Shown here one piece after another: positions 9,381-29,780 of a DNA stretch of 64,000 nucleotides (position 1 is the first letter of the stretch; every line of letters begins with the position of its first letter). The translations under genes were made by a program, and so were the position numbers. The notes beneath the pieces were generated by a model. The model did no database searches. It was not told the origin of the DNA and was given only the letters and a program-made list of their open reading frames with translations. This stretch comes from Ekhidna lutea (GTDB lineage Bacteria; Bacteroidota; Bacteroidia; Cytophagales; Cyclobacteriaceae), in NCBI RefSeq assembly GCF_900188325.1, contig NZ_FZPD01000002.1, positions 310,001 to 374,000 on the forward strand, written 5' to 3'.

Positions 9381-9776
9381 ATGGAACCCATTAAAATATA
9401 TCCAACACGAACCACACCAGCAGTACTACTAGATCCAAACCGGGGTGTTTTTAAGATGTATGGTAGGTCAAGTCCTGAAAATTCAGTGCAGTTTTATGAC
9501 CCAATCAGAGTCAACCTCACAAAAATACCGGGAGAGAAGGTGGATGTTCGAATCAAGTTGGAGTATTTCAACACTAGTTCCTCCAAATGCATTTACGATC
9601 TTTTAAAGGAAATCAAAGCTTTGCGCGACAAAGGAAAAGACGTGATTGTGAGGTGGTACTACGACGAGGATGATGAGGATATGTTGGAAGCTGGCGAAGA
9701 TTATAGTGATCTATTAGACCTTCCATTTAAGTTCATTGAGTATCATCCGAAAGATGAATATCAAAAGACTGCATAA
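9381..9776 (+). CDS. SiaC family regulatory phosphoprotein (DUF1987)
   Basis: This 131-residue protein aligns well by eye with SiaC of Pseudomonas aeruginosa: the N-terminal PTRTTPAVLLDPNRGVFKMYGRSSPENS, then the central EYFNTSSSKCI, then VRWYYDEDDEDMLEAGEDY, then LPFKFIEY. In SiaC the threonine of the LNTSS motif is phosphorylated by the kinase SiaB and dephosphorylated by the PP2C phosphatase SiaA, and the unphosphorylated form activates the diguanylate cyclase SiaD. The equivalent threonine is present here (in FNTSS, about residue 74). No SiaB-like kinase or GGDEF protein is encoded in this window. The nearest PP2C-like gene is at the end of the chemosensory cluster (15879-16673), but its active site looks degenerate. 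Confidence 0.85.
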   Translation: MEPIKIYPTRTTPAVLLDPNRGVFKMYGRSSPENSVQFYDPIRVNLTKIPGEKVDVRIKLEYFNTSSSKCIYDLLKEIKALRDKGKDVIVRWYYDEDDEDMLEAGEDYSDLLDLPFKFIEYHPKDEYQKTA

Positions 9777-13089: not shown

Positions 13090-15813
13090 CTAGAAATTAA
13101 AACCAATTCTTCCAAAGAAATACGCCCCATCTGATCCCATCTGAACAGAATCTGACAGACCTCCTTGATCAGTCCACGCATCAAATTGTGGTGTAGGGTA
13201 TGTATTGAAGATGTTGTTCCCTCCTAGTGTGAATCTGAAACTATCAGTAAACGAGTACGATAAGCTCAGATCTACTGTTGTAGCTGCTTCATATACATCT
13301 GTAGCTACAGGAAACAATGCATCAGCCTCAGCTTGAGTGGTGGCTGGCGAATCAACCCACTGAAAATCTTGTAGGATTACTTCACTAAATTGAGTTACAA
13401 ACAAGTTCGCGCTAAACTTATTAAGTGTATAGCTAACCCGTGCACCAAGTTTATGATCTGGTGCTGCTGCTTTTAAGTAGGCTTGAGAAAAAGGGCCAAA
13501 AAAGGTGAACTCATTCAAGTTACCATTCTTGATTTTATCAATTTTCAACTTGTTGAAGTTTCCGGAAACACTCACATCTAAATTACTGTTAGAGGCTAAC
13601 TCATACTTATAGCCTACTACAATATCGACTCCCTTGGTGTTAGTGTCTACTCCATTGGCAAAAAACTGTGCTGCATCCACTCCAAGACCAAGCCCTGAAG
13701 CATCAAAGTTGTCTGTCAGCACAATTCTATCATCAACTGAAATGGAATATGCGTCTACAGTCATATTAAAACCACCGGAGTTATAAGTGAATCCAATGGA
13801 TGTATTGATGGCTGTTTCCTCCTGTAACGGGCCAATGCCAAATGCCTTTGTCACTGTGCTCGTATTAGCAGATAATAAAGAAGGAACAGATGCTCCTGCT
13901 ACAATATTGTTGAATATCAAGTTGTAATGAATCTGAGCCAGTGATGGAGCACGGAAACCTGATGAAACAGACCCTCTCAATGAAAGGCTCTCATTTATGC
14001 TATAACGAGATGCCAGCTTAAAATTGAAAGTTTCACCAAAATCACTGTACTTTTCAAATCTCAATGCACCTCCAATAAGGAAGTCGTCTGATAGGTTAAT
14101 TTCGCTATCCAGGTAAAGTCCCAAATTTGTTCTACCTCTGTCCACTACATTATCAGGACTATACCCCGGAAATCCCTGAGAACCACCTGGTAAATCATCG
14201 CCATTGGTATCTGTAGCAGGAGACTGATCGGCTGGATTGCGAATGGCTACACCATTATTGTCATATAAAGCATATGATCCCTCCTCGCCAGCAAAAATGG
14301 TAAAACGTTCAGTTCTATATTCCATACCATAAGCAAGGTTAAAACCTGCAGCTATGTCCTTATAGAATTTATTGAAATCCAGATTAGTTACATTTTGTGA
14401 AAGGTTGTGCCCTCCTGCATCAAAATCCGTTGGAGAAGCTGCTTTTAATGACGCATTGTTTGTTTCCACTATGTAGTAATGGAAGTTATTCTTCCCATAG
14501 GTATTACTAAAATCTACGTTCCACCCATTATCCATTGTATGTCTGAAACCTGCGGATGCAGAAACATCGTTAATATCTGATGTAATGTGTGGGGTAAACC
14601 CATTTGGATGCAAGCTTGGTACGGATCTATTATCTCCATTCGCAAAACTATCTCGTGAAAATGCATGTGCATCTGTGTGTCGGAAGCTCCGCCCACCAAA
14701 CGCATAAAAACTAGTCTGTTCACTAATTGGAACCTCTGAATTGATCATGAAATTGAAACCATCCACAGCTGCTGTTCCGTACCCCTTTCGCCATGAAAAA
14801 CCTGGTCTAAGGGTTCGATCTTTGGAAAGAAACTCCGTTGTGATATTAGCAAAGCCACCTTTCTCACCTATTGGTAAACCATAGTTGAAGTCCATTTTAT
14901 AGGTATTGCCATCAAAGCTTTTATTTTTTCCATCAAGTCTATTCTTTCCCTCGACGTTGAATAAAGTTTCACCGGTTTCCTCTTCCCATCCTTCCCCAAT
15001 CGCAGTACTGTAAGCTCCGTAGGTTACGCCTCCTGAAACACCTTCATCATTTCGCAAAACAATGTTGATGACACCTGCAATCGCATCTGACCCATATTGA
15101 GCTGAAGCTCCATCTCTCAGGATTTCAATTCGCTTAATGGCCGAAGCAGGAATAGCATTTAAATCCGTGCCGGAATTGCCTCTACCCCTGGTGCCAAATA
15201 CATTTACTAAAGAAGATTGATGCCTTCGCTTGCCATTGATTAAAACTAAGGTCTGATCCGGTCCCAGGCCTCTTAAGGAAGCAGGGTCTATATGATCCGC
15301 ACCGTCTGATCCTGACTGCTTAGTAGCATTGAATGATGGAGCTGCATATTGCAATATTTGATTGATTTCAACCTTTCCATTGGTGGCAGCAACATCTGCA
15401 ACATCTATCACATCAATCGGAACCGGGGAATCGATTACCGTTCTGTTTTGATTTCTGCTGCCAACTACCACAATTTCAGAAAGTTGCTCTGCAGAAGGCG
15501 CCAGGGATAAATCGTATGTAGACTGTGATGCAAGCACTTCAAAAACCTGCCGTTCATAACCAACATAACTGACTTCAATTCTATCACCAGCTTTTGCATT
15601 AAGTGTATAGATCCCATCGACACCAGTAACATCCCCTGTGGTTGTTCCTTGAATAACTACAGTAGCACCGATGATTACCTCACCAGATTCACTATCCACA
15701 ATTTTGCCACTAATGGTTTTTGATTGTGAAGCAGCCAAAAAACTACTCAACCCTAAGATGGACAGAAGTACGATACGAATCCTGCTCATCGTTATTTGTA
15801 ATAATCTCTTCAT
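13090..15813 (-). CDS. TonB-dependent outer membrane receptor
   Basis: This 907-residue protein starts with a signal peptide (cleavage near LAASQS, about residue 31). It continues with a CarboxypepD_reg-like domain (about 33-110: ISGKIVDSESGEVIIGATVVIQG ... YVGYERQ), then the plug domain (about 115-260, with PVPIDVID, LRGLGPDQTLVLINGKRRH and ILRDGASAQYGSDAIAGVINIVL), then a 22-strand beta barrel ending in the aromatic terminus YFFGRIGFNF. It would import a large or scarce nutrient in a TonB/ExbBD-dependent way. It is not SusC-like in length and has no SusD partner nearby, so the substrate is open (siderophore, vitamin or glycan). An alternative ATG eight codons downstream gives a shorter signal peptide. 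It lies 65 bp downstream of the end of the chemosensory cluster on the same strand but is probably a separate transcript. Confidence 0.93.
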   Translation of the reverse strand: MKRLLQITMSRIRIVLLSILGLSSFLAASQSKTISGKIVDSESGEVIIGATVVIQGTTTGDVTGVDGIYTLNAKAGDRIEVSYVGYERQVFEVLASQSTYDLSLAPSAEQLSEIVVVGSRNQNRTVIDSPVPIDVIDVADVAATNGKVEINQILQYAAPSFNATKQSGSDGADHIDPASLRGLGPDQTLVLINGKRRHQSSLVNVFGTRGRGNSGTDLNAIPASAIKRIEILRDGASAQYGSDAIAGVINIVLRNDEGVSGGVTYGAYSTAIGEGWEEETGETLFNVEGKNRLDGKNKSFDGNTYKMDFNYGLPIGEKGGFANITTEFLSKDRTLRPGFSWRKGYGTAAVDGFNFMINSEVPISEQTSFYAFGGRSFRHTDAHAFSRDSFANGDNRSVPSLHPNGFTPHITSDINDVSASAGFRHTMDNGWNVDFSNTYGKNNFHYYIVETNNASLKAASPTDFDAGGHNLSQNVTNLDFNKFYKDIAAGFNLAYGMEYRTERFTIFAGEEGSYALYDNNGVAIRNPADQSPATDTNGDDLPGGSQGFPGYSPDNVVDRGRTNLGLYLDSEINLSDDFLIGGALRFEKYSDFGETFNFKLASRYSINESLSLRGSVSSGFRAPSLAQIHYNLIFNNIVAGASVPSLLSANTSTVTKAFGIGPLQEETAINTSIGFTYNSGGFNMTVDAYSISVDDRIVLTDNFDASGLGLGVDAAQFFANGVDTNTKGVDIVVGYKYELASNSNLDVSVSGNFNKLKIDKIKNGNLNEFTFFGPFSQAYLKAAAPDHKLGARVSYTLNKFSANLFVTQFSEVILQDFQWVDSPATTQAEADALFPVATDVYEAATTVDLSLSYSFTDSFRFTLGGNNIFNTYPTPQFDAWTDQGGLSDSVQMGSDGAYFFGRIGFNF

Positions 15814-15878: not shown

Positions 15879-16673
15879 TTATGCTTTAAAGCCGATGACC
15901 ATAATATCATCGTTTTGACGGTTGGCTCCAGTCCAGGTTGCCAGATATTGTTCTGTCATAGACTTTTGTTCAGACATGGCTACTTTTCTTCTATCACGTA
16001 GAAATTCTCCGAACTGATTGGTTGTGATCTTCTTAAAATCTGGACCTCCAATTAGGTTAAACACACCGCTACTGCATAGGTAAAAATTTGAATCCTTAGT
16101 GTTTTCCAATGATATAGATGTATAGCTGGAACGATGCTCCCCAGTCTCACCTACCTGGCTTTTTTCACCTGTAATAATTTTTATACCTGTTCGATGAACC
16201 TGCAATAAATCCATGTTTGCCCCGGCAAATTCCATTGCCTTGGAAGTAGTATTGAGTTTTACAATCCCGACGTTTGCATTGGTGTTGAGTAGTATATTGT
16301 TTTTATCCTTGAATCGAGCCTGTACTTCTCTGTGCAAAAATTGAAGAATTGACCCGGGAAAATCAATGGAATATCCATCAACCATCTTTTTAAGTGCATT
16401 CATGTATATTCGGATCATCATGCTAGCCAGATGACCTTCACCGACACAGGTAAATAGCGCTAAATAGACATCATTACCGTTACTGTGAAGCCAATACCCG
16501 TCACCTCCTACTCTCCCTTTTGGTTTGTTTATTACGAAGGCATCTGAAAAAAACTCCATGAGCATTTGCTCCTGAGGTAACACAGAAAAGTAGTTACGCC
16601 TGGTACTATCCTCAATCTTATCAAGATTGACGATCCAATTAGATTCATTTACCTTTTTACCTGATTCACTCAT
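15879..16673 (-). CDS. SpoIIE/PP2C-like domain protein, possibly catalytically degenerate
   Basis: This 264-residue protein is the last gene of the chemosensory cluster. It follows the SpoIIE/RsbU phosphatase fold along its length: VGGDGYW (D58), then FTCVGEGH where active members read D-x-x-G-H-G, then MEFAGANMDLLQV, then LCSSGVFNLIGG where active members read T-D-G, and finally QNDDIMVIG (D255, D256). Thus two of the usual metal-binding aspartates appear replaced by T75 and S202, while the others remain. It may be a pseudophosphatase that binds a phosphoprotein, or a variant enzyme. I chose the ATG at 16673 over the GTG one codon upstream because it has better spacing from AAGGAT. It starts 9 bp after the CheX-like gene stop. 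Confidence 0.75.
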   Translation of the reverse strand: MSESGKKVNESNWIVNLDKIEDSTRRNYFSVLPQEQMLMEFFSDAFVINKPKGRVGGDGYWLHSNGNDVYLALFTCVGEGHLASMMIRIYMNALKKMVDGYSIDFPGSILQFLHREVQARFKDKNNILLNTNANVGIVKLNTTSKAMEFAGANMDLLQVHRTGIKIITGEKSQVGETGEHRSSYTSISLENTKDSNFYLCSSGVFNLIGGPDFKKITTNQFGEFLRDRRKVAMSEQKSMTEQYLATWTGANRQNDDIMVIGFKA

Positions 16674-16682
16674 CACAAATCC

Positions 16683-17150
16683 TTAATCTAAACCTAGTAC
16701 AACAAAAGCCTCATGGTTATTCCATTTTATTGGAATGACGTACATGGAAACATTTTCAGGAATATTTAATTCCTCCGGCATACCTTCAAAAACTGTAGGT
16801 ACTGAGATCATAAAATTTGCGCCAAGGTTGGCTCGAACGTTACCAGCTACAACGTTGGAAATTTCCCCAGCCATATCTAATATATCTTCTTCACTAGGGT
16901 CTTCTATTCCAATAAAAAGGTTAATTAAATCCGCAAACATTTCTCTATTAGCCGATATATAGACAAACCCTTGCCTGCTTCCGGATATCCCAATCATTCC
17001 AGTAAAATCCTTAAGCACCAGCCCATCAGACTCCTTTAAGTAAGGAACCTTCATATCTGAGTCAATCTCTGTGAGATGCTTGAAGTAATTGCTCACAGAA
17101 TTAATGAACAAATTGCACGTTGCTTCGAATTCTTCTTTCCTACTCTCCAT
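16683..17150 (-). CDS. cheX: CheX-like chemotaxis phosphatase
   Basis: This 155-residue protein belongs to the CheC/CheX/FliY phosphatase superfamily. It shows the helix with the catalytic E-x-x-N pair in DMAGEISNVVAGN (about residues 94-106), followed by VRANLGANFMISVPTVFEG. CheX-type proteins dephosphorylate CheY-P and so end the signal. It overlaps the start of the upstream CheY gene by 11 bp, so the two are translationally coupled, and that CheY is its likely substrate. Downstream lies the PP2C-like gene. CheX is the best name because there is a single E-x-x-N motif and the protein is short, but CheC is not excluded. Confidence 0.8.
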   Translation of the reverse strand: MESRKEEFEATCNLFINSVSNYFKHLTEIDSDMKVPYLKESDGLVLKDFTGMIGISGSRQGFVYISANREMFADLINLFIGIEDPSEEDILDMAGEISNVVAGNVRANLGANFMISVPTVFEGMPEELNIPENVSMYVIPIKWNNHEAFVVLGLD

Positions 17151-17514
17151 CCCTTTTCAATAATTTATCAAATGCCCTGGACAGGTCATCTGCATTTACA
17201 GGTTTATACATAAACCCCCTGGCGCCTCTATCTAAGGCGATGAGGCCAGTAAGTTTATCTGCAAGTGCAGTAATAATCATCACTTTGGTTTCAGGATTAA
17301 TTTTCATTATTTCCTCAAGGCAAGCTATTCCGTCCATCTCTGGCATAGTGATGTCAAGTGTCACCACATCGGGTTTTTTATCCATCACCATTTGAACGGC
17401 TTCTACTCCATTAGCTGCCTGACCAATGATTTCCATATCGTAATTTGCCAGGTTTTTTTCGATTGTTCGCCGCATTACTGACGAATCATCCACTATTAGT
17501 AATCGCTTCTTCAT
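17140..17514 (-). CDS. cheY: CheY-like response regulator
   Basis: This 124-residue protein is a single receiver domain: acidic pair D9/D10, phosphoacceptor D54 (VVTLDITMPEMDG), a T/S position in MIITAL, and the conserved lysine in FMYKPV. It should accept phosphate from one of the two CheA-type kinases in the cluster, most simply the NIT-HAMP-PAS-HPt kinase whose stop codon it overlaps by four bases (ATGA). It has no DNA-binding domain, so its output is by protein contact. It is less related to the two other cluster CheYs than those are to each other. Confidence 0.93.
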   Translation of the reverse strand: MKKRLLIVDDSSVMRRTIEKNLANYDMEIIGQAANGVEAVQMVMDKKPDVVTLDITMPEMDGIACLEEIMKINPETKVMIITALADKLTGLIALDRGARGFMYKPVNADDLSRAFDKLLKRDGE

Positions 17515-20114
17515 TCCTCAACCTTCTTGGTGTTAATTATTGGTAATTTGATAGTCATTTCGAATGACTTGCCAGGAGTGGAGGTGATTTCGTAAGCGCC
17601 TTTGTATTCATCAATAATTGACTTAACCAAATGCATACCCTGGCCTCTGCCAGCGTGTTCATCTGATTTATCAGATGTTGAAAATCCTTCATGAAAAATG
17701 AGGTCAATAACTTGTGAGACTTCCATTTTCTTTAGCTGTGTTTCAGTAACAATACCATGCTCAACAGCCATATGCTTAATGCGATCCATATCAAGCCCTC
17801 TTCCGTCATCTTTATAACGGATAAACATCTCTTCATCCGATTTGGATAATTCAATAAGAATCTCCCCCATAATAACCTTCTTATCATTCATTCGGACACT
17901 AGGTGCCTCAATGCCGTGGACGATAGAGTTTCTTATAAGTTGAATCATCATATCCTTGAAAGGATTGATATATGCTTCTGGAAGAATGACATTCTCAATA
18001 TTATCAAATGTCACATTCACGGTTTTACCAACTTCTCTTGCAATCAATTCAGCTCCTCGTTCCAGTGAATCAATAACCATAATATTAGATACCGAATCAC
18101 CCTCAGCAGGAAATTTTTTGTAGATATTGATGATCTTATAAAGCATTTCGGCTATCTCCGCAATCATACGATCTGCTTCATCTACTTCATATAAAATGGC
18201 TAGGAAGTCTTTACCTCTGACATCCTTAGATTGAAGCTCTGTAATGCCGTCTTCAATTTCATGAAATTTATTAGCCATAAGTTCCATGCCGATTACAACC
18301 GCATTTCCTTTGAGGTTGTGAATAATATCAAAAGTAAAACTCAGTAGCTCAGAGTATTCATCCTTATCATTTTTCTCATACTTCTCAGAAATGCTCTTTA
18401 GCATTTTACGAGAATTGTGAAGAAAGCCACGTAGAATGGAAGGATCAATCTTAAGAATGCTTAACACTCTTTCTGTCTCTTGCTGTTTCTTCTTCTCAGC
18501 CTCGCTCAAGTGCTGCTGAAGTAAAATCGATTCGGTTTCATCTGAAACAGTGACCATGATATTTTGAATCTTATCCTTTCGAAAGATTCTTGTGAAGTCT
18601 ACACGGATATATTTGGTAGCTACGATCCCATTGTTTTCCGTATGAATCTTTACTTGATCAATAGGGTTCAGCTGATTTACTACCTCTTCATCCATGTCTT
18701 CATTGAAGAGGTGGCGCATAAACATTTCCAATGCTTCTAACTCTCTTGGCAAGATGAGTGGGCGCATGAAGTTTGAAAAGTTTTCACCAGCAATCCGGTC
18801 ATTGTTGAAGATTTCTTTCATTGCTTTTGAATGAAATTTTGAAATCTTAAACTCTTTATCAAGCAGGAAAATACCCTGCTCTATATTTTCAAAAACCACA
18901 AGCGAAACACCATAGATATTCTTATATAGAAACTTCGCTTTGTCGCGTTGTTTTCGTAGTTCAAAGTGAGACTTCTTGATCTCAAAGACCATTTTATTAA
19001 AAGTATTGGCATATTGACCAAGCTCATCCTTTGTTGGAATCACTACTTTTTTGCTCATATCCCCGGCTGAGATTCTTCTGGTATAAGCTTCAAGAATTTT
19101 TACGTTCTTGAGAAGGTTTGTGACCAATGTTGTCATCAACCAAAACGCGATGATGCCGATGGTTATGTCAAGGATAAGAAAGGTCCAGAAATTTTGAACA
19201 GAACGTTTTGCTATAACCTGAGTCTTTGTCTGAATATTGTCAGACATATAATCCTCTACTCTTTTAAGCAGGTTAATTTTGGTTGTGCTAGCCTCATACC
19301 AATCATCTGGATTTTCAGAAAGTGTATCATTGGCAAAAACAACCTCACGCATTCTATTTACCTCCTCAACTTCATCTCCCTGTACGATTTGATTGTAATA
19401 GTCTATTGATTCTTCATTTGCAATAATGGTAAAGGCATCCAAATAAGAATTTTGACTTGAAACTAAAGTTGTAAAGCGATTATAAAGATCAAACCCAATA
19501 TGATTATGAGAAAATGCCTGAGTGCCGATTGCTCGCTCAATACTTGCATACTCTTTTGATTTCAAAAAGTAAATAATTGCATGGATCTGTTGTGCTACTT
19601 CTTTATCTCTTGTTTCATCTATCAGCTTAATTACCGTATTTAATGCAATATTGTTAACCTCTGAAAATCTATCTATTGATTCTTCAGAGCTGATTCTATG
19701 CTGGTCAATACTTTTTCTAAGGGCTGCTATTTTGTCAAAATGGGCATTTAATTGATCCAGGTCTGTGCGGTGAAATGTCAATAATTCATCAAGTTCACCG
19801 CTTGAGAGTTCGTTGTAGTATTGCTGAAGCGTACTATCTGTTCGCTCCCTTTGCCTATTGAGTTTAATACCGAAATTATCTCCCTCATTGGCCAAAAATC
19901 CGGAAGAAATACTTCTCTCTTTTTGTATTTCATGAACAACATGATTGATTTCAATCCCGACAGTGATCGCCTTGTTTAGTCTGACACTATCAGAATAATC
20001 AAGGTAATGATACCTTACCTGTAAGTAATCGAATGCCAAAATGATAACGATGAGCGGAATAATAATTACCGCAAATTTTTGGCGAATAGGTAAATTGGTT
20101 AGTCGCTTTATCAT
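17511..20114 (-). CDS. CheA-like membrane kinase: NIT sensor, HAMP, PAS, HPt, HATPase
   Basis: This 867-residue protein combines a membrane sensor with CheA-type catalytic parts. TM1 is at about 14-32. A NIT-type (nitrate/nitrite-sensing fold) extracytoplasmic domain follows at about 50-300 with the motif EIQKERSISSGFL. TM2 is at about 309-335, HAMP at about 335-390 and a PAS-like domain at about 405-525. A histidine phosphotransfer domain holds IIHNLKGNA (H599). The HATPase domain at about 690-860 has the N box IRNSIVHGIE (N729), DDGRGLD and GRGQGMHLV. No CheA P3 dimerisation helices, P5/CheW domain or classical DHp box is seen, so it should phosphorylate its own HPt and pass phosphate to a CheY, probably the coupled one downstream. 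Ligand unknown. It starts 15 bp after the CheY gene at 20130-20492. Confidence 0.85.
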   Translation of the reverse strand: MIKRLTNLPIRQKFAVIIIPLIVIILAFDYLQVRYHYLDYSDSVRLNKAITVGIEINHVVHEIQKERSISSGFLANEGDNFGIKLNRQRERTDSTLQQYYNELSSGELDELLTFHRTDLDQLNAHFDKIAALRKSIDQHRISSEESIDRFSEVNNIALNTVIKLIDETRDKEVAQQIHAIIYFLKSKEYASIERAIGTQAFSHNHIGFDLYNRFTTLVSSQNSYLDAFTIIANEESIDYYNQIVQGDEVEEVNRMREVVFANDTLSENPDDWYEASTTKINLLKRVEDYMSDNIQTKTQVIAKRSVQNFWTFLILDITIGIIAFWLMTTLVTNLLKNVKILEAYTRRISAGDMSKKVVIPTKDELGQYANTFNKMVFEIKKSHFELRKQRDKAKFLYKNIYGVSLVVFENIEQGIFLLDKEFKISKFHSKAMKEIFNNDRIAGENFSNFMRPLILPRELEALEMFMRHLFNEDMDEEVVNQLNPIDQVKIHTENNGIVATKYIRVDFTRIFRKDKIQNIMVTVSDETESILLQQHLSEAEKKKQQETERVLSILKIDPSILRGFLHNSRKMLKSISEKYEKNDKDEYSELLSFTFDIIHNLKGNAVVIGMELMANKFHEIEDGITELQSKDVRGKDFLAILYEVDEADRMIAEIAEMLYKIINIYKKFPAEGDSVSNIMVIDSLERGAELIAREVGKTVNVTFDNIENVILPEAYINPFKDMMIQLIRNSIVHGIEAPSVRMNDKKVIMGEILIELSKSDEEMFIRYKDDGRGLDMDRIKHMAVEHGIVTETQLKKMEVSQVIDLIFHEGFSTSDKSDEHAGRGQGMHLVKSIIDEYKGAYEITSTPGKSFEMTIKLPIINTKKVEE

Positions 20115-20129
20115 AGAAGTTGCATAAAA

Positions 20130-20492
20130 CTATGCAAGTACTTTTTCTACTACCTTGAGTAAATCCTCTTCGGTAAATGGTTTAACAATATATTCTGAAG
20201 CCCCGAGTGATAGTCCTTTGTTCACCACTGTTTGCTGGCCAACTGCACTTACCATAATTACTTTTGATGGTACTTCTTCATCCTTTAATACTTTAAGAAT
20301 TTCAAACCCCATCATGTCAGGAAGAATATTATCTAATGTAATCAAATCTGGCTGTAATTGCACAGCTAAATCAATGGCACTTTCTCCATTTTGGGCTTCA
20401 CCTACTACCTCAAAGCCTGCACCTTCCAATGCAGACTTTATCAATGACCTCATATAAATAGAGTCATCTACAATCAATACTGTCTTGCTCAT
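20130..20492 (-). CDS. cheY: CheY-like response regulator (paralogue 2)
   Basis: This 120-residue receiver domain has D9/D10, phosphoacceptor D54 (LITLDNILPDM), SAVGQQ at the switch threonine/serine position, and the KPF lysine. It is clearly a paralogue of the receiver at 21246-21608: both contain the blocks VVGEAxNGESAIDLA, ITLDNILPDM and SKVIMxSAVGQQ. A CheC-like gene lies between the two. It is a single-domain output protein that could bind a motility machine or act as a phosphate sink. A 78 bp gap separates it from the CheC-like gene, so it may also have its own promoter. Confidence 0.93.
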   Translation of the reverse strand: MSKTVLIVDDSIYMRSLIKSALEGAGFEVVGEAQNGESAIDLAVQLQPDLITLDNILPDMMGFEILKVLKDEEVPSKVIMVSAVGQQTVVNKGLSLGASEYIVKPFTEEDLLKVVEKVLA

Positions 20493-20570
20493 TTTTCTTT
20501 TTATTACTGTTTTATCACTTAATTAAATTTATCACTGCTATAGCAGTACGATTAGGGTGATAATGAGTAG

Positions 20571-21167
20571 CTAAACCAGGTCCTTTATTTTATCCACAAA
20601 CTTATTGTGAAATACCCAAATAAAGTCTGGACATATATCTAGTTCTTTTCCATGCAATACGGCTTTAAAATGAATCATTGATTCAAATTCGCTGGATTCT
20701 TTATCTATAAAATCATTTAGTTCCGTTGCTTTAAGCACCTTCAATGATGGCACATTTCCATAAATTTCAACTCCCAAAAAATTAGAAAACTCGGTGATAA
20801 CTGCTGCTGAGACCATATTATCAATCTCGGTAAGAAAACCTAACTTCATGATCATACTCTCTTTGGAATCATCCTTTACTATTTTTTCAGGCAAACATGC
20901 TTCGTAAAGTTTTGACACCTCTTTTTCAGAAAATATTAAATGGCTGGTTCCTTTTAGCTCTCCCATCAATTCTGTTTTAATAAGGTGAACATCCTGGTTG
21001 GCGCCACCAAATCGACTGGTCTCTAATTCAGCATTTACATAATCAATCTGTTCGATACTCACAGGACTTTGAAGTATTTGCTCCATTGATGCTTTCGCCA
21101 TGGAAAGCCCATCAAATATCAGTTTGGTGGCTACCTTCATTTCAGAGTCGTTCAAATCTGCTATCAT
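20571..21167 (-). CDS. CheC-like chemotaxis phosphatase
   Basis: This 198-residue protein matches the CheC/CheX superfamily. The motif FLTEIDNMVSAAVITEFSNFLGVEIYG (about residues 111-136) contains the catalytic E-x-x-N pair in TEIDN. Only one such pair is evident, whereas classical CheC has two, and the N-terminal 100 residues look like a divergent half. It probably dephosphorylates one or both of the flanking CheY paralogues. No CheD gene, the usual CheC partner, is present in the cluster. Gaps of 78 bp on both sides set this gene slightly apart from its neighbours. Confidence 0.75.
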   Translation of the reverse strand: MIADLNDSEMKVATKLIFDGLSMAKASMEQILQSPVSIEQIDYVNAELETSRFGGANQDVHLIKTELMGELKGTSHLIFSEKEVSKLYEACLPEKIVKDDSKESMIMKLGFLTEIDNMVSAAVITEFSNFLGVEIYGNVPSLKVLKATELNDFIDKESSEFESMIHFKAVLHGKELDICPDFIWVFHNKFVDKIKDLV

Positions 21168-21245
21168 CTTCTCAATTTTTAAGTCTTAGTTGGGCTCTCA
21201 AAATAATTCTTTATTCTAAATCTCAGTTAAATTTTAGGTGAACTG

Positions 21246-21608
21246 TTAAGTTTCTTCATCGAGTCCCCTCAAAATACCGATTAATTCTTCATTGTCAAAT
21301 GGTTTTACCAGGTAATGTTTTGCGCCATTCTCCATTGCCTCTACAATAGCAGATTGCTGTCCTACAGCACTTATCATGATTACTTTTGATGTAAAGTCGT
21401 CTGTATTAATCGTTTTCAATACATCCAAGCCTGTCATATCCGGCAAAATATTGTCTAGCGTAATAACATCAGGATTTAATTCAAGCGCAAGATCTATGGC
21501 TGATTCGCCATTTTTGGCCTCACCGACCACTTCATACCCATTGTCATGAAGCAACGAACGCAAGCTTGATCTGATGTATGTTGAGTCATCTACTATGAGT
21601 ACTCGCAT
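21246..21608 (-). CDS. cheY: CheY-like response regulator (paralogue 1)
   Basis: This 120-residue single receiver domain has D7/D8, phosphoacceptor D52 (VITLDNILPDMTG), the SAVGQQ block and the KPF lysine. It starts 4 bp after the cheR stop codon, so it is part of the cheB-cheA-cheR unit and is the natural phosphate acceptor for CheA. Together with the receiver at 20130-20492 it forms a duplicated pair around the CheC-like gene. Confidence 0.93.
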   Translation of the reverse strand: MRVLIVDDSTYIRSSLRSLLHDNGYEVVGEAKNGESAIDLALELNPDVITLDNILPDMTGLDVLKTINTDDFTSKVIMISAVGQQSAIVEAMENGAKHYLVKPFDNEELIGILRGLDEET

Positions 21609-21612
21609 GGTC

Positions 21613-22431
21613 TTACTGTTTTGTTTCGTTTAATTTCTTATAAATACGAGTGCGTACATCATAAATTCCAAACTTTGTCTTACCATAGTCAGGCATGATG
21701 TCGTAATAGCCAATGATCAAATAGCCATTGGGTTTCAGGCAGCTATGTAAAAGATCTAAGACTCTTCTTTTAAGCGAATCATCAAAGTATATCATTACAT
21801 TTCTGCAAAAAATGATATCATACGTATCATTCATCTGCTCCATTACTAGATTGTGGCGTTTGAAGCTCACATTTTTTGTGTATTTGGTTTTAATCGTTGC
21901 ATGTTTATCATGAAAGTCGAAATAGTCACTCATTTCACGATTTGGAAAAAATTTCAGAAACGGAACCAAATACTGCTTTAAGGTTATCAGGGAATAATCA
22001 CCTTTTGTAGCTTTTGCAAGTGCTGTCTTACTTAAATCAGTTGCTATTAATTTTGTTTTATTTAGCAAATTTAGTGTCTCAAGTACGATATTCATTGTAT
22101 AGACCTCCTCGCCGGTAGAGCATCCTGCATGCCATATTTTCAGTGACTTGTTTGGTATCTCTGGGATAATTTCACCACGAAGTTTGATCCATACATCAGG
22201 ATTTCTGAATAACTCAGTCAGGTTCACCAGTAAGTCATCAATCGCATTTTGAAAAAATTCATTGTCTTTTAAAACCAAAGACCACAACTCAATGATGGAA
22301 TCCATATTGTTCTTGAGCATCAGTCGTACTATTCCTCGTTTTAAGGAGGACCGTTCATAGTTTGTAAAGTCTAATCCATAACGATTGTTTATAGCTTGCA
22401 TAAGTGCTGTAAGCTCCTCATCGCTAATCAT
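21613..22431 (-). CDS. cheR: CheR methyltransferase
   Basis: This 272-residue protein has an N-terminal helical CheR domain (about 1-75, with YERSSLKRGIVRLM) and a SAM-dependent methyltransferase domain (about 80-265) with IWHAGCSTGEEVYTM as the SAM-binding loop and IIFCRNVMIYFD as the conserved CheR motif. It methylates glutamates on the MCP as part of adaptation. The MCP here lacks a C-terminal NWETF-type tether, so CheR must bind it directly. It lies 17 bp downstream of cheA. Confidence 0.95.
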   Translation of the reverse strand: MISDEELTALMQAINNRYGLDFTNYERSSLKRGIVRLMLKNNMDSIIELWSLVLKDNEFFQNAIDDLLVNLTELFRNPDVWIKLRGEIIPEIPNKSLKIWHAGCSTGEEVYTMNIVLETLNLLNKTKLIATDLSKTALAKATKGDYSLITLKQYLVPFLKFFPNREMSDYFDFHDKHATIKTKYTKNVSFKRHNLVMEQMNDTYDIIFCRNVMIYFDDSLKRRVLDLLHSCLKPNGYLIIGYYDIMPDYGKTKFGIYDVRTRIYKKLNETKQ

Positions 22432-22448
22432 ATCGGTTGTTATCGTTC

Positions 22449-24161
22449 CTATGATTGTGTGGTTTTAGTTGCTGATTGAAACAATATATCCATTATTGAT
22501 GCGACATCAAGCACCGGACAGACATTTCCGGATCCAAGGATGGTTGACCCGCTGAGTAATCGACTGTTATTCAGTGGCTTAGGTAGTTTTTTCTCTATTA
22601 TTTCTTTTTGCCGATCCAGCCGATCCACGACTAACCCCAATAATCGTCCGGAATGCGAGGCTATAACAACATTTAGCTGAGAATCATTTGCAATCTTTTG
22701 GAGAGGTTGCTGGCCGATGGCATGCTGCTCAAAGTCATTCAGGTTGCGAATGTTAAGTAGCCCCTTTAAAAACACAATTGGAACTGACTTATCATTATAG
22801 TCAATCATTAAATTATCCGCAACATGGTGAATATTGTCTTTTGTGAGATATGTAACAGAATCAATATAGGTTAGTGGAATAGCATATTCTTGATCGTCTA
22901 CTATAAATAAGAGTGCTCCTTTTAAAGCAAGTGAAGAAGGAAGCACCAGGTGAACAGATGTACCAATTCCTATTTCAGTTTCTACCAGAACCTGCCCACC
23001 AATTGATTCTACAGCCTTTTTAACGACATCCATACCAACACCTCTTCCTGATATTTCAGTGATTTTTTCAGCGCTTGAAAAACCTGGCTCAAATATGTAT
23101 CGGATGATTTCATTTTCGCTGAGCTTGTCTGCTACCTCCTGTGAAACCATTTTTTTCTTAACGATTTTCTCTTTGATCTTCTCTTTATCTATACCCTTTC
23201 CATCATCTGAAATGGTGATGACTACACTATCTTTTTCTAATGTAGCAGATAGCGTTACACTTGCTTTTAGGTCTTTCCCTGAGTTTTTACGCTCCTCTGA
23301 GGATTCTATTCCATGTGAAACGGCGTTACGAACCAAATGCACCATGGAATCGCTAATGATTTTAAGAATATTCCTGTCTATCTCTACTTCAGTGCCTTTG
23401 AGAACAAGTTCTACTGACTTCTTTTCTGTGGCTGCCGCATCTCTGAGCACCCTGTGAAATTTATTGAAAAGAAACCCCATCTGCACCATTCGCACATTCA
23501 TGATACCATAATGTAGATTAGATGAAATGCGTTTTAGACGTTCAAATTCCAGCGTACTTTTTCCTTCTTCCCCAAATAGAGATATCAGCCGATCTCGCTC
23601 GATTACTAACTCCCCAACCATGTTAAGCAGGTCATCCATGCGCTTTACGGGAATCTGTACGACATCTGCAAACTTGATACTTCCTCCCTCTTCTTTTACT
23701 TCTTCTTGTGGTTGATCAGTATCTATTTCAGGCTCTTGAGGCTCATCGGAATCATCAGAGGGTTTACCAGCGTCTTCAAGGGCATTCTTCAGAAATACAG
23801 ATAGTTTCGTTTTAATACCAAGATAGCTAACCTTCTCATTAGTGGTGATCGCATTGATCAATCCTCCAAGCTTATCATTGGCACGAAACAAACTATTGAC
23901 CAATTCAGTATCCAATGGAATATCTCCATTTTTTATTGCACCAAAAATATCTTCAACTGTATGAGACAAATCCGCGATTTTGTCATAACCCATCCCCATT
24001 GCATTACCCTTGAGGGTATGGACTATTCGAAATATATTGGCGATGGCTCGTTTACTTGAGTGATCCTTTTCAAGCTCGACAAATAAACGGTTTAGCTCCT
24101 CAAAGTTTTCGAGGGCTTCTGTTAAAAATAACTGACGATATTCTTCTTCTTTCGAATTCAC
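22449..24161 (-). CDS. cheA: CheA histidine kinase
   Basis: This 570-residue kinase has an HPt (P1) domain with FRIVHTLKGNAMG (H48), a short acidic linker (about 130-165) where the P2 CheY-binding domain would normally be, the P3 dimerisation domain (PVKRMDDLLNMVGELV), the P4 ATPase domain (HLVRNAVSHGIE, DDGKGID, GRGVGMDVV) and a C-terminal P5/CheW-like domain (about 425-560). It phosphorylates itself and then CheY and CheB. The start is a GTG directly after the cheB stop (TAAGTG); no ATG occurs before the P1 core, so this start is well supported. The lack of a P2 domain makes it shorter than enterobacterial CheA (about 650). Confidence 0.95.
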   Translation of the reverse strand: MNSKEEEYRQLFLTEALENFEELNRLFVELEKDHSSKRAIANIFRIVHTLKGNAMGMGYDKIADLSHTVEDIFGAIKNGDIPLDTELVNSLFRANDKLGGLINAITTNEKVSYLGIKTKLSVFLKNALEDAGKPSDDSDEPQEPEIDTDQPQEEVKEEGGSIKFADVVQIPVKRMDDLLNMVGELVIERDRLISLFGEEGKSTLEFERLKRISSNLHYGIMNVRMVQMGFLFNKFHRVLRDAAATEKKSVELVLKGTEVEIDRNILKIISDSMVHLVRNAVSHGIESSEERKNSGKDLKASVTLSATLEKDSVVITISDDGKGIDKEKIKEKIVKKKMVSQEVADKLSENEIIRYIFEPGFSSAEKITEISGRGVGMDVVKKAVESIGGQVLVETEIGIGTSVHLVLPSSLALKGALLFIVDDQEYAIPLTYIDSVTYLTKDNIHHVADNLMIDYNDKSVPIVFLKGLLNIRNLNDFEQHAIGQQPLQKIANDSQLNVVIASHSGRLLGLVVDRLDRQKEIIEKKLPKPLNNSRLLSGSTILGSGNVCPVLDVASIMDILFQSATKTTQS

Positions 24162-25199
24162 TTATAGATCGTTGACCAGATAGTTTCCAATTTCTTTAAT
24201 ATCCAAAATCTCATCTACAGCACCTGACTCGTTCGCGGCTTTAGGCATTCCATATATTACACTGCTTTCTTTGTTTTGCGCTATGGTTTTTCCTTTTGCC
24301 TCGTGCACTGCTATCATGCCTTTTACTCCATCTTTTCCCATCCCTGTCAGCAAAACACCTACCATCCTATTCTTATAAATCTTAGCTGCACTAAGCATCA
24401 TTGCATTTATAGAAGGGTTATTATAGTCAGGATAGACTTCATCCGTAAAATCGATTACTGCCTCATTGTTTTTCTTTGTTAGTATTAGGTTAGCGTGTCC
24501 TGGGCAAAACATCACTACCCCTGGTGTTGGTTTAGCACCTTTCGTCGCTGAAACCACCTCAAGGTTCGTCAAAGAGCTTAGGCGCTGAACAAACTGAGGA
24601 ATAAATACTGCCGGCATATGTTGGCAGACAATAATAGGAATATCAAAATCAGCGGGTAATGAACTTAAAACCCTTTCAATTGCTGTAGGCCCTCCAGTAG
24701 AAGCCCCAATGGCTACCAGATCATAATTAGACTTCTTCTTGCCCCTTTTTTTTGATACCACCTGTACTGTTTTCTTAGCAGCAGTGATCGTTTTGGGTTT
24801 TGCACGAGATGTGCTTTTTATTTTTTGAATCAGCTCCTTTTGAAGCTCTCGCATTTTCGATTTATTCCGGTCGGGCTTATTGATGTAGTCAACAGCTCCG
24901 TTTTTCAGTGCTTCAAAAATGGGTTGCAAATCTGTATTTCCAACTGAGCTTAAAATTAAAATCGGCGTTGGGCGACTTTCCATTATAGCTTTCACTGCAT
25001 ATAAACCGTCATAGTCTGCCATATTTAGATCTAGCAAAACAATGTCTGGTTTAAGCGTTAAAACCTGCTTTGTTGCTTCCAATCCATTCGTGGCTGTTCC
25101 GACCACTTCTATTTGTGAATCCTCTGAAAGCAAATCCGTAACAAGCAACCGCATGAATGCAGAATCATCTACAACTAATATTTTAAGCTTACTTGCCAT
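24162..25199 (-). CDS. cheB: CheB protein-glutamate methylesterase
   Basis: This 345-residue protein has an N-terminal receiver domain (D57 in IVLLDLNM, KP lysine in YINKPDRN), a basic linker (about 130-155) and a methylesterase domain with the catalytic serine in AIGASTGGPTAIERV (S167), the histidine in CQHMP (H194) and the aspartate in GMGKDGVKGM. Phosphorylation by CheA would activate removal of methyl groups (and deamidation) at the MCP. It starts immediately after the stop of the CheW gene (25200) and runs directly into cheA. Confidence 0.95.
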   Translation of the reverse strand: MASKLKILVVDDSAFMRLLVTDLLSEDSQIEVVGTATNGLEATKQVLTLKPDIVLLDLNMADYDGLYAVKAIMESRPTPILILSSVGNTDLQPIFEALKNGAVDYINKPDRNKSKMRELQKELIQKIKSTSRAKPKTITAAKKTVQVVSKKRGKKKSNYDLVAIGASTGGPTAIERVLSSLPADFDIPIIVCQHMPAVFIPQFVQRLSSLTNLEVVSATKGAKPTPGVVMFCPGHANLILTKKNNEAVIDFTDEVYPDYNNPSINAMMLSAAKIYKNRMVGVLLTGMGKDGVKGMIAVHEAKGKTIAQNKESSVIYGMPKAANESGAVDEILDIKEIGNYLVNDL

Positions 25200-25886
25200 C
25201 TATTTCAAAAATTCATCAGGAACAACAACTGTATGATCACTTCGAACCAATTCATCGATATCCAGGTAAAAAATAATTCGATCATCCAACTGAATCAACC
25301 CTTTAATGTATGATGATGTGCCTGTTGTATTGTCTATCATCGAAACGTCACTGGTGATGTTGTCCCCAGAGGTTTTAAGCGTTACCGGCAAACTATTTAG
25401 AAGAAATCCAATAGGACTATCTTTAGCTTTAACGGCTAGAAAATACTCACATAACTCTTCGGATTTATTCACGAATTTGCGTCTGAGATCCATTGCTAAA
25501 AAGGTTTTCCCGCGGATTGAGGCAATGCCCTTCACGTGAGCCGGACTGTTAGGTGCTTCTGAAAGTTTAGGTGTTGACACTACTTCACTAACCTTAGCTA
25601 TTTCTACCGCATACTCTTCATTACCGACATTAAACACCACAAATTGAACTATTTGATTTGAAAGGCTTTCGATTTCTTCGCGGAATTTTTTCCTTAGTTC
25701 TTGTTTTCTTTTCTGTTCCTTTTCTGTTATGAAATTTCCTATTATTTGTGCTTTTCCAGGCTCAGTTGCCTTTTTTTTCACAGAGCTCTTTTTAATAAGT
25801 TTCTTTTTCTCCACTTTCTTTTTGGGAGATTTCTTTTTCTCACTTGCAATTAACTGCTGCTTTTTTAAATTCTTCCCCAATGCCAT
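25200..25886 (-). CDS. cheW: CheW adaptor with lysine-rich N-terminal extension
   Basis: This 228-residue protein has a C-terminal CheW domain (about 75-220) with the conserved VKGIASIRGKTF loop that contacts CheA/MCP. The first 70 residues are an unusual, very lysine-rich extension (KKKSPKKKVEKKKL and onward). The first seven residues, MALGKNL, are identical to those of the other CheW of the cluster (29199-29780). It couples receptor to kinase in the signalling array; the basic tail might bind membrane, nucleic acid or the neighbouring ParA-like protein, which is inference. It sits between cheB (immediately downstream) and parA (3 bp upstream). Confidence 0.92.
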   Translation of the reverse strand: MALGKNLKKQQLIASEKKKSPKKKVEKKKLIKKSSVKKKATEPGKAQIIGNFITEKEQKRKQELRKKFREEIESLSNQIVQFVVFNVGNEEYAVEIAKVSEVVSTPKLSEAPNSPAHVKGIASIRGKTFLAMDLRRKFVNKSEELCEYFLAVKAKDSPIGFLLNSLPVTLKTSGDNITSDVSMIDNTTGTSSYIKGLIQLDDRIIFYLDIDELVRSDHTVVVPDEFLK

Positions 25887-25889
25887 TCT

Positions 25890-26636
25890 TTACACATTTA
25901 ATTCTAAAATTTCATCAGCAAAATGCATGTAATCAACCGCACTATTAGAAGTTGGTTTATACGAAATAACGCTTTTTCCAAATGAAGGGGCTTCTGAAGC
26001 TTTTACATTATTTCTTATATGGGATTTGAAGATTCTTAAGTCGTAATTTTCTTTGATGTAGTCTTCTACCTCTATACTAAGCTTTCTCCTTTTATCTACC
26101 ATTACTGGAAGAACTCCTTCAATGGACAAGTCTTTATCATACGAGGTTTGTACTTTATTAATCGTATCTACAATCTGGTCTAATCCCTGGAGACTCAGCA
26201 CCTCCATTTGCATGGGTATAATTACCTTGTCTGCAGCTAGCAAAGCATTAAGTGTAAGTGTTGATAAAGAAGGTGGACAATCAATCAAAACAAAATCAAA
26301 ACCTTTTGCATCAGTGAGCATTTGAGATAGAACCTTTTCTTGTCCTTCACTTCGTGCCAGCGATAATTCCGTATCTGCAAGGTTATTATCTGATGGAGCA
26401 ACAGTAATTCCTTCCCGGATTTCCATGACATCTCCAAGAGAACATTCACCTAACAAAGCATCTGCCATGGACTGGCTAAATTCGTTTACACCCAATGAAT
26501 AACTAAGGTTGCCTTGTGGATCAAGGTCAATGAGTAAAACATCCTTGGCCCGACGCTTTAATGCTGCTCCTAAATTGATTGCAGTGGTCGTTTTTCCTGT
26601 TCCTCCTTTATGATTTATAATGGAATAGACTATCAT
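25890..26636 (-). CDS. ParA/MinD-type ATPase of the chemosensory cluster
   Basis: This 248-residue ATPase has the deviant Walker A NHKGGTGKTTTAINLG (about residues 8-23), VLLIDLDPQGN, and Walker B FVLIDCPPSLS. It resembles the soluble chromosome- and plasmid-partition ParA group. No ParB or parS-like repeat is visible, and the gene is embedded in the che operon (3 bp from the MCP gene, 3 bp from cheW), which points to a ParC-like role: positioning or segregating the chemosensory array at cell division, as known in Vibrio and Rhodobacter. The C-terminal lysines that would bind DNA non-specifically cannot be judged without modelling. Confidence 0.9.
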   Translation of the reverse strand: MIVYSIINHKGGTGKTTTAINLGAALKRRAKDVLLIDLDPQGNLSYSLGVNEFSQSMADALLGECSLGDVMEIREGITVAPSDNNLADTELSLARSEGQEKVLSQMLTDAKGFDFVLIDCPPSLSTLTLNALLAADKVIIPMQMEVLSLQGLDQIVDTINKVQTSYDKDLSIEGVLPVMVDKRRKLSIEVEDYIKENYDLRIFKSHIRNNVKASEAPSFGKSVISYKPTSNSAVDYMHFADEILELNV

Positions 26637-26639
26637 TTA

Positions 26640-29165
26640 TTAATCACCTTTCTGTGATAACTTAAACATGCCTACCTTATCCTTGAGCGTTTTAGCAATT
26701 TCGGTAACTTCCTCCGATCGTTGTGTATAGCTCTCCATTCCAGCGCTAAGCTCAGTAGCCGAGCTTGCAACCTGCTCTGTACCTGCGGCCGTTTCCTCAG
26801 CAATGACCACAATGCCTTCAGTAATACTTACCACATTCTTTATGCTATCCATTTGTTCTTTGGTAGCATCAAGAATTTGCTTCGATATCTCCAGATTTTG
26901 ATTTGAAGATGAGGCTATCTCTCTGAACGCCTCGGATGCATCATTAGAAGCACTTTCACCTCCAAGAATGCTCTCATTCATGACTTCAATCACTTTAGCC
27001 GCAGTAGCGGTATCGTTCTGGACGTCTGTGATTAGTTTTTCAATTTCTCTAGCTGAATTTCTTGAATCTTCAGCGAGTTTTCTGATTTCTTCTGCAACTA
27101 CTGCAAACCCTCTTCCGGCATCACCAGCCTGAGCAGCTTCAATAGCTGCATTTAGGGCTAATAAATTGGTTTGAGCAGCTATATCAGTGATAATACCCAA
27201 AACCCTGGTTATCTCTTTGCTTCGCTCAGTAAGTACCTGAATGGATTCATTCGTGTCATTCGCAAAGGCTTTGATGTCCTTCATGCTAAAGCCTACCTTG
27301 TTCACCATTTTGAGTCCTGTTTCAGAGCTTTCAGATACCTTATGTGCTGCCACATTGATTTCATCTGCCTGAACACTCATACTAGAAGCTGCTCGTTGAA
27401 TGCTTTCAACAAGGTTTGATGATTCATCTACCTTGCTTACCTGATTTTGTGCCCCGCTACTCATTTCTGCAATTGCGGAAGCGATTTCGCCGGTGTTGGT
27501 ATTCATCTCTTCACTGGCTGAAAGCATCTCCATAGAGGAATCACCAATGATATTTGCATTCTTAACAATTCCATCGAGTAATTCATCAAGGTTATTTAAA
27601 GCTTTATTTAAATTTTCAGCTAGTTGAAGGATGTCTCCTTTCGCTTCTTCTGTATATCTAACAGTTAAATCGCCTTCTGCCATTCGGTTAGCCATTTCAT
27701 TCAGTATTATGAATGGTTTAGAAACTGATTCCAGAAGACTATTAATCGAAATACTAAGTTCCCTCCATGCTCCGGATTTATTATCAGAGTTCATGCGTGA
27801 TTTTAGGTCTCCTTCACCTTCTGCATGCTGAACGACATTGTTTGTTTCATCAATTACGGATCGGAGATTGTTTCTCATCATTATTAATGAGGCACCTAAA
27901 ACGTCATTTTCGCCAGCAACTTCAAAGTCAGCGTTTAAATTACCTTCACCAATTTCGCGAGAAAAATTTGCCTTTTTCCTTAGTTCAGCAAGCAGGATAT
28001 TAACCGAATGGGCTATTTCCCCAAGCTCATCGCCAGAAATATTCTTTATCACAAGCGAGTTATCTAATACTCCTTTCGCAAGATTCTTCAAAAGACTATT
28101 AGATTCATCTAAAGAGTCGGTAATTCTATTCGCAAGTTTCCAAATGGTGTAGGTAAGGAAGACTAGCCCTATCAGTCCAATAATGAGTGTTAAACGAAAT
28201 GTAGCATTAAATGGGGCTGTAATCTCAGAAACGGGAACAACAAAAACAGCCCACCAGGATTCATTAGATCTGCCCACTGGAATATTTGCGAAGGAAACAT
28301 ATACATCATCATCCAGTGAATCATCATGGGTGCGGTATGAAAAAGGCTTTCCTTCTTGCATTTTTTCAGATACATTAACAGGGCTTTTTTTGATAATGTT
28401 AAGCGTATCCATTTGTTTGTTGAATAGACCGGCGTTTTTATGAGCTGTAATTACACCTCCGCCCGAAACAAGTAGCGCATATGCATTTTCATAAAAGTCT
28501 ACCTCTGAAATACCTTGAAAATCATCAACAGACATATCTGTTCCAATTACACCGGCGAACTTTCCATCCACTTCAAATCGTACGGTAGGAGAAATGCCTA
28601 ATAGTGAGTCTCTGGTATTGGATGAATAATCATAATCTAAATACCAGTAAGGCTCACTCAATAACTCTTTAAGGTCATCTTCTGCTTTGAATCGTTCATA
28701 AATTGAGCTTGCTTTTCTTCCATCTAGTTCAGCAAGCTCCAAAGAAGATTTTACCTCGCCCCCGTCCATGTATGAGTTAAAGCGCTCTCGTCCATAACTT
28801 TTATCCCAGTTTGGATCGATAAACTCCAGCTGCCAACTCATCCAGGTTGCATCATACTTTGGATACATCACGAGCACTTTATCCAAAAGTGATTTCCGTA
28901 GTTTGTTGCGTTGATCATCAGGAAGAAGTGTGTATTCTTCTACGGCTACTGCCATGATTCTCGAAACAGCCAAATCTTCATCAATAATCACTTTTATTTC
29001 ATTGGCTTTTTGTTTGGCATAGGAATCAGCAAGTTTCTCTGCTTCGCTAATCGCATTATTCCGCAGATTGTAGCTTATATATCCTAGTGTTACGACATAG
29101 ATGATTACTGTCAATCCGAGGATAAACAACATCATCTTTCTTCGAATGGTAAAATTCTTAAGCAT
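26640..29165 (-). CDS. Methyl-accepting chemotaxis protein with dCache-like sensor and four HAMP-like units
   Basis: This 841-residue receptor has TM1 (about 11-31), a long periplasmic region (about 32-320) with double-Cache features ([31 protein letters not shown]), TM2 (about 324-344), then about four consecutive HAMP-like helical units (about 345-397, 398-436, 440-482, 485-535). A cytoplasmic signalling domain (about 540-835) follows, with the tip region [36 protein letters not shown]. It should bind a small extracellular ligand and control CheA via CheW. The C-terminus (KLSQKGD) has no CheR/CheB tether. It is the only MCP in the window and lies 33 bp downstream of the first cheW. Confidence 0.93.
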
Positions 29166-29198
29166 TTTGGTTATGGTTAACTATCAATAAATTAATCC

Positions 29199-29780
29199 TT
29201 AGGCAGTTTGAGTAAATTGATCGCCAGTAATCATTCCTAATATATCAAATAGGATAATCATTCGACGATCTTTTTTAATAATTCCTTTTAAGTATTTCTG
29301 ACCAGTGACGGACTTTAATCTAGAAGCAGACAACTCTTCAATCATTTTTTCTGCAACCATTAATGTGTCAGGCACTTCAGGTATTGCGATTCCCATTTTA
29401 TATTCTTCATGTTCTAAAACCAATAAATAATTGTACGTTTTATCATTTGAATGATTATGAGGATTGAAGAAGGTAGCCAAATCAAGAATTCCGTAGATAT
29501 TTCCTCTCACATTAACCATTCCAGAAATATATGGTGGCATTTCCGGCAATAATGAGACACGAGGGCATTTTACTACCTCACTAACCAACTGGATGGGTAT
29601 AGCATACTCCTCTCCTCCTGATTTGAAAACGCAAAATTGATGGAGCCTTGCTTGTAAACCCAACTCTTCATCTCTCTCACCCTCTTGTATCGACTCATTT
29701 TGGTTCTGCTTCCCCTTTTCGGCTTTTTCTTCCGCAGTAATCTCGCTTGTTTTCTTTGTTAGGTTTTTTCCTAATGCCAT
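29199..29780 (-). CDS. cheW: CheW adaptor, first gene of the chemosensory cluster
   Basis: This 193-residue protein has a CheW domain (about 45-185) with YISGMVNVRGNIYGILDLATFF as the central loop and strands. The first 45 residues are a charged tail starting MALGKNLTKK, which shares its first seven residues with the other CheW. As the most upstream gene on the minus strand, it should be read first from a promoter in 29781-29972. It would bridge the MCP, encoded 33 bp downstream, with CheA. Confidence 0.93.
   Translation of the reverse strand: MALGKNLTKKTSEITAEEKAEKGKQNQNESIQEGERDEELGLQARLHQFCVFKSGGEEYAIPIQLVSEVVKCPRVSLLPEMPPYISGMVNVRGNIYGILDLATFFNPHNHSNDKTYNYLLVLEHEEYKMGIAIPEVPDTLMVAEKMIEELSASRLKSVTGQKYLKGIIKKDRRMIILFDILGMITGDQFTQTA

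Follow-up and report, generated by a model that had tools for sequence, protein, structure and literature searches.

A cluster of chemosensory (che) genes in Ekhidna lutea raises the question of what a system of this kind acts on, the control targets of che systems in flagellum-less Bacteroidota being, to our knowledge, largely open. The cluster lies in a 64 000-nucleotide stretch of contig NZ_FZPD01000002.1 (hereafter the window) and comprises 14 genes on the minus strand, read from 29780 to 15879, with intergenic gaps of -11 to 33 bp and, as exceptions, two gaps of 78 bp, one on each side of cheC. A first-pass annotation had described a thirteen-gene operon on one strand; the single strand was borne out, the number was not, and its own list already held 14 genes. 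Taking gene content and gene order together, we narrowly favour the reading that the cluster encodes a chemosensory system with two inputs, whose output is a SiaA/SiaC-type partner switch. Overall, the observation made in the first-pass annotation was partly confirmed and its interpretation partly supported. The genes, and a candidate target encoded in the same window, are as follows.

29199..29780, minus strand: CheW1 (193 amino acids), first gene of the cluster (PF01584, E 8.8e-28)
26640..29165, minus strand: chemoreceptor MCP, 841 amino acids (PF00015, E 2.2e-37; HAMP)
25890..26636, minus strand: ParA-like ATPase (AAA_31, E 1.8e-50); starts MIVYSIINHKGGTGKTT, with a deviant Walker A
25200..25886, minus strand: CheW2 (228 amino acids; PF01584, E 1.8e-22)
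24162..25199, minus strand: CheB methylesterase with receiver (PF01339, E 1.1e-56; PF00072)
22449..24161, minus strand: CheA with HPt, dimerisation, ATPase and CheW domains (PF01627, PF02895, PF02518, PF01584); HPt phospho-acceptor motif HTLKG
21613..22431, minus strand: CheR methyltransferase (PF01739, E 2.9e-40)
21246..21608, minus strand: CheY1 (PF00072, E 1.1e-29)
20571..21167, minus strand: CheC-like CheY-P phosphatase, opening the block common to both che core types
20130..20492, minus strand: CheY2 (PF00072, E 6e-28)
17511..20114, minus strand: second kinase with NIT (E 7.3e-55), HAMP, HPt and CheA-type ATPase
17140..17514, minus strand: CheY3 (PF00072, E 1.2e-26), adjoining the kinase in relatives
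16683..17150, minus strand: CheX, CheY-P phosphatase (PF13690 above cut-off, E 2e-20; D-x3-E-x2-N signature)
15879..16676, minus strand: SiaA-like PP2C domain protein, predicted catalytically dead
9381..9776, plus strand: SiaC-family phosphoprotein (PF09345, E 1.2e-35), candidate target and putative member of the system

The che core and the second kinase

The cluster has the parts by which a che system is recognised, namely an MCP, CheW and a CheA that carries a CheW (P5) domain in addition to its HPt, dimerisation and ATPase domains, as well as both adaptation enzymes, CheR and CheB. All three motifs looked for were present in CheB, the acidic pair was present in each of CheY1, CheY2 and CheY3, and the CheC-like protein had the CheC fold with the E-x2-N active-site motif. 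A genome-wide search returned a single match to MCP signalling domains, in this cluster, and three CheW domains, those of CheW1, CheW2 and CheA, making this the only chemosensory system found in the genome.

Pfam searches of the second kinase placed NIT, HAMP and HATPase_c above cut-off and Hpt (E 7.4e-4) below it, and the NIT domain aligned to the NasR NIT structure 4akk. The HPt histidine, the N-box asparagine and the G1 aspartate were kept in 21/21 aligned kinases. No CheW-like P5 domain was found by Pfam in 17511-20114, and the label of two CheA kinases was dropped; of the first-pass claim of two CheA-type kinases, the CheA-type ATPase and the HPt domain stand and the full CheA does not. 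Pfam found no PAS domain between HAMP and HPt, where a PAS-like stretch was read by eye. Two arginines of the NIT domain, R67 (kept in 21/21) and R254 (20/21), align, at a deduced chain offset, with the residues of NasR that we take to be its nitrate contacts, R49 and R236, two numbers that the literature text searched does not give. Nitrate may be the signal for this kinase, and CheY3 is its presumed partner receiver.

By homology, the first input would be an array formed by the one MCP, the two CheW proteins and CheA, probably placed by the ParA-like ATPase and adapted by CheR and CheB. The array would phosphorylate CheY1 and CheY2, and the CheC-like protein would dephosphorylate both, CheC and CheX being described as CheY-dephosphorylating in an excerpt of PMC10782961. 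In the second input, the NIT-sensor membrane kinase would autophosphorylate its HPt domain and pass the phosphate to CheY3, and CheX would dephosphorylate CheY3-P. Both inputs would meet at the terminal PP2C. In most relatives, a SiaA-type Ser/Thr phosphatase domain would dephosphorylate a SiaC-family protein, as suggested by its fold, its conserved catalytic aspartates and the SiaC genes that four lineages have within or close to the cluster. The PP2C of the Ekhidna-like clade, to which the window belongs, lacks the catalytic aspartates and is nonetheless conserved; it would serve as a binder of SiaC-P or of a live PP2C instead of an enzyme. The physical linkage of a chemoreceptor array with a kinase of nitrate type and a switch like SiaA/SiaC offers a concrete, testable output.

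One block behind two che cores

The core seen in the window (type A) precedes the order CheC-CheY2-kinase at 14 loci (window, L112, L114, L115, L118, L119, L120, L121, L123, L126, L129, L192, L193 and L194). L129 ends within the kinase at a contig cut, with the remainder on another contig (L149); L113, L116 and L149 are likewise cut by contig ends. PP2C follows CheX at 12 of the 13 type-A loci besides L129. A different core (type B) replaces type A at four loci, L117, L122, L124 and L125, the last two from genomes G811 and G798 within the window's own GTDB genus. The CheA proteins of L117, L201 (the same as L125) and L202 (L124) shared 28–31% identity with four type-A CheA and 58–85% among themselves, and that of L239 (L122) was 55% identical to that of L202. 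CheD and an additional HisKA kinase were identified in one or two of the four type-B clusters. Kept behind the type-B core were CheC (55–57% identity), CheY2 (69–75%) and the kinase (51–54%). L201 and L202 also retain ParA (about 55%).

The possibility that the distal genes always stand apart from the che genes in relatives, named in the first-pass annotation as fatal to its view, fell away: at 18 loci a che core adjoins them, only CheR and CheY2 precede the kinase at two, and eight are standalone modules without adjoining che genes, five of these with PP2C within about 1.4 kb of CheX. The order kept behind two kinds of core suggests that the CheC-CheY2-kinase-CheY3-CheX block works together with the che array, and the persistence of this pairing in related genera with a different core points to a protein-phosphorylation switch, and not a flagellum, as what the cluster steers. 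Two cores in front of one block also serve as a natural experiment that can tell which components form a unit. In the kinase tree, the eight standalone rows formed one clade (99/98) and the type-A rows grouped together, along with two truncated rows; the four type-B rows, without a resolved placement, fit either two to three changes or one origin, and neither number nor direction of core exchanges was read from the tree, in which long branches lead to seven outside-clade rows. At the usual place of PP2C after CheX, L124 (12456-14176) and L125 (12433-14164) each have two genes, those of L124 matching a solute-binding-protein family. In type-B cluster L237 (7048-9194, genome G758), the che genes are interspersed with a gene of the histone-deacetylase family and with a PP2C that is divided between two frames.

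In a family sample of 390 GTDB genomes the second kinase, counted at E 1e-60, was present in 27, among them nine of the ten same-genus genomes shown (the window's own included). An order sample of 390 genomes yielded a full-length second kinase in three and a CheA match, counted at E 1e-40, in 136. Being ordinary for the order is thus true of the che core and not of the combination, and the first-pass view that a CheA arm, a membrane HPt/ATPase arm and a PP2C end are unusual together proved right in that the combination is uncommon outside one clade. Its other test, whether the system is common and well described, gave a split answer, the core being common in the order and the combination not; no description of the che/second-kinase/PP2C combination was recognised in the open-access literature searched, a coverage that leaves out most subscription journals. 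The nearest named records were 'Cytophagaceae bacterium ECT2AJA-110-C' (88% over the kinase region) and Ekhidna sp. DT_28 (85%). For comparison, 37 other che loci of the order were read, each from a different genome among the 136 that had a CheA match, some ending at contig edges; most comprised parts of the order ParA-MCP-CheW-CheY-CheB-CheA-CheC-CheR, and a second-kinase match was found at 0/37. Within the order, che clusters at L076, L077, L078, L083, L084 and L087 have GAF-PAS proteins of 626-1025 amino acids that closely follow CheA/CheC on the downstream side.

The terminal PP2C, SiaC and the output

The terminal protein of the window has a PP2C fold nearest to SiaA and scored below the NCBIfam full-length cut-off (the SiaA model has 658 positions). 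The PP2C-like end piece of the first-pass annotation was therefore recovered; a point outside that annotation is the loss of the catalytic residues, with T76, N135, S203 and N207 at the positions of SiaA D474, D534, D600 and D604. All four tested aspartates were kept in 18 of 19 module PP2C copies outside the Ekhidna-like clade, and the PP2C of this clade is predicted to be catalytically dead. Its reading frame was open in 5/5 copies, which differed at 58–76% of fourfold sites and at 9–21% of second codon positions (live Marinoscillum PP2Cs, 2–26%); such codon-position counts were used because synonymous sites were saturated, leaving dN/dS (Biopython) unusable for most pairs. Live and dead PP2Cs in related genera offer a clean test of a pseudophosphatase role; in Marinoscillum pacificum the PP2C retains its aspartates and the cluster includes a SiaC gene.

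In Pseudomonas aeruginosa, SiaA and SiaB determine whether SiaC is phosphorylated at T68, according to an excerpt of PMC7647112, and the SiaC of the window has the FNTSS motif, as in the T68 peptide given there. The window's genome has five matches to the SiaC family and two to the SiaB family, so that a SiaC with the phospho-acceptor threonine and a SiaB kinase are both present. Across 16 module-carrying genomes (15 with a che core in front, G716 with a contig cut), SiaC occurred in all, at 1 to 12 copies per genome (102 in 85.0 Mb). It lies inside the cluster, between MCP and ParA, in G794 and G823 and also in L129 (outside the 16). In G715 it comes 601 bp behind PP2C, and in G758 it stands upstream of the type-B core, in the order SiaC-CheC-CheY-deacetylase-PP2C, where CheC was named by 39% identity to that of the window and has no Pfam match. 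SiaC and the cluster are 6.1 kb apart in the genome of the window, and in G699 the distance is about 10.6 kb. Together with the SiaA-type PP2C, these neighbourhoods point to the partner switch, which the first-pass annotation had not considered, as the best candidate for the immediate output. In total, SiaC lay within 12 kb in 6/16 genomes of four lineages (0.72 expected; Poisson P of four or more, 0.006), a proximity counted after the pattern had been seen and among related genomes that are not independent.

This limit weighs against the partner-switch reading, as do several other observations. The SiaC link is one of gene neighbourhood: ten of the 16 module genomes had no SiaC within 12 kb, and the window's own SiaC lies 6.1 kb off on the opposite strand. 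Among the 37 comparison loci, SiaC was near only two and PP2C near two; a general che-SiaC linkage across the order was weak (2/37) and is not claimed. The order also has CheR-PP2C-SiaC at L075 and CheB-CheR-SiaC-SiaB at L218. A PP2C match was lacking in L114 (an Ekhidna genome), whose contig runs on for 1.55 kb beyond CheX, in type-B clusters L201 and L202, where two solute-binding-type genes follow CheX, and at three of the eight standalone modules, and ParA was missing at three of the 14 type-A loci (L118, L126, L194) and two of the four type-B loci (L237, L239). With a dead PP2C, the output could not take its enzymatic form in the genome of the window, and the convergence of CheY1 and CheY2 with CheY3 is itself inferred.

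Gliding or attachment is a possible output, and the che core might steer gliding directly via CheY1 and CheY2, the distal kinase-CheY3-CheX-PP2C genes being an independent two-component unit that is merely co-transcribed. GldL was matched in 6/6 genomes tested and FliG_C in 0/6, the distal unit occurs without che genes at the eight standalone loci and the core without the second kinase at all 37 comparison loci. We nevertheless regard this as unlikely, as the two units are joined at 18 loci, even with a different core, CheC-CheY2 stands directly before the kinase at those loci, and no gld gene was seen within the cluster. Decidedly improbable, in our judgement, is a distal unit that serves as a feedback or adaptation device for the array, with CheY3 and CheX as a phosphate sink, PP2C as a scaffold and no Ser/Thr output: it would suit a cluster with three CheYs and two phosphatases of CheC/CheX type, and also the dead PP2C of the window's clade, but not the aspartates kept in nearly all module copies outside that clade or the SiaC genes in or near the cluster in four lineages. 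We give slightly less credence still to the PP2C of the Ekhidna-like clade being a decaying remnant that leaves the window's cluster without any Sia-type output; the loss of four catalytic aspartates and the clade genome of L114 argue for decay, whereas the open frames and the low divergence at second codon positions beside that at fourfold sites argue against it.

The relay outside the order and known systems

A kinase of the same kind lies beside CheY and CheX at 13 of 22 outside-clade loci in a scan of named records, under the labels Proteobacteria, Spirochaetota, Verrucomicrobiota, one Bacteroidetes and one unplaced bacterium. L138, L145, L148 and L152 show no CheY or CheX and L139 no CheY, and L153-L156 are CheA clusters and were left out of the module count. 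Among 22 kinases searched with Pfam, five (of the clade) had NIT, four PilJ (L070, L140, L146, L147), three an ammonium-transporter domain (L072, L142, L143) and ten none of these; at L072, L139 and L142 a gene for a class III cyclase comes next. As a pattern of gene order, sensor and neighbouring output gene appear to vary while kinase-CheY-CheX stays. In the CheY-CheX-kinase modules at L142 (4591-9412) and L072 (8176-13274), the kinase starts with a full ammonium-transporter domain and the cyclase comes after it. Only tentatively do we extend the partner-switch reading to a wider one, in which the array and the nitrate-type HPt kinase would jointly control a SiaA/SiaC Ser/Thr switch, kinase-CheY-CheX would be a module portable across phyla, exchangeable in its sensor (NIT, PilJ or ammonium transporter) and in its output (PP2C or nucleotide cyclase), che coupling would be kept through core exchange, and the phosphatase of one clade would be a conserved pseudoenzyme.

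Like the nitrate sensors of the NIT/NarX/PilJ type, the second kinase has a NIT domain that aligns to NasR with two arginines kept, but here it is joined to HPt and a CheA-type ATPase, with CheY and CheX alongside. The Wsp system of Pseudomonas likewise has an MCP/CheW/CheA/CheB/CheR core, here in an organism without FliG; unlike Wsp, the cluster has a Cytophagales-type core with ParA and CheC and a second sensor kinase, and PP2C/SiaC takes the place of a diguanylate cyclase as its candidate output. In contrast to the CheC/CheX phosphatase branch of Thermotoga and Borrelia, both kinds occur in one non-flagellar cluster, each beside a CheY. SiaABC(D) of P. aeruginosa consists of the PP2C SiaA, the kinase SiaB and the phosphoprotein SiaC; shared with it are the SiaA-type PP2C, SiaB-family matches in the window's genome, and SiaC genes, which accompany the PP2C in the same genomes and, in several relatives, lie within the cluster or close to it. 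SiaA, however, has its own sensor part, whereas the PP2C here is a free domain behind two histidine-kinase arms, and in the window's clade it has lost the catalytic aspartates.

A locus of Sia type in the window's own genome (L157 on C11, 8986-15752) has SiaB, SiaC, a degenerate REC-PP2C, a histidine-kinase-like gene and a SiaA-like dCache-HAMP-PP2C. L163 of G534 resembles it, and in L162 of the same genome (7947-15311) a lone MCP gene lies near a run of SiaC-family genes. In the window, a TonB-dependent-receptor-like gene, read from the sequence (13090-15813), separates PP2C from an ABC-F gene. L112, L113 and L192 have a gene with the length and place of ABC-F directly after PP2C, which suggests that a gene was gained or lost at this place. 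A Ku-domain protein gene lies at 40455-41300.

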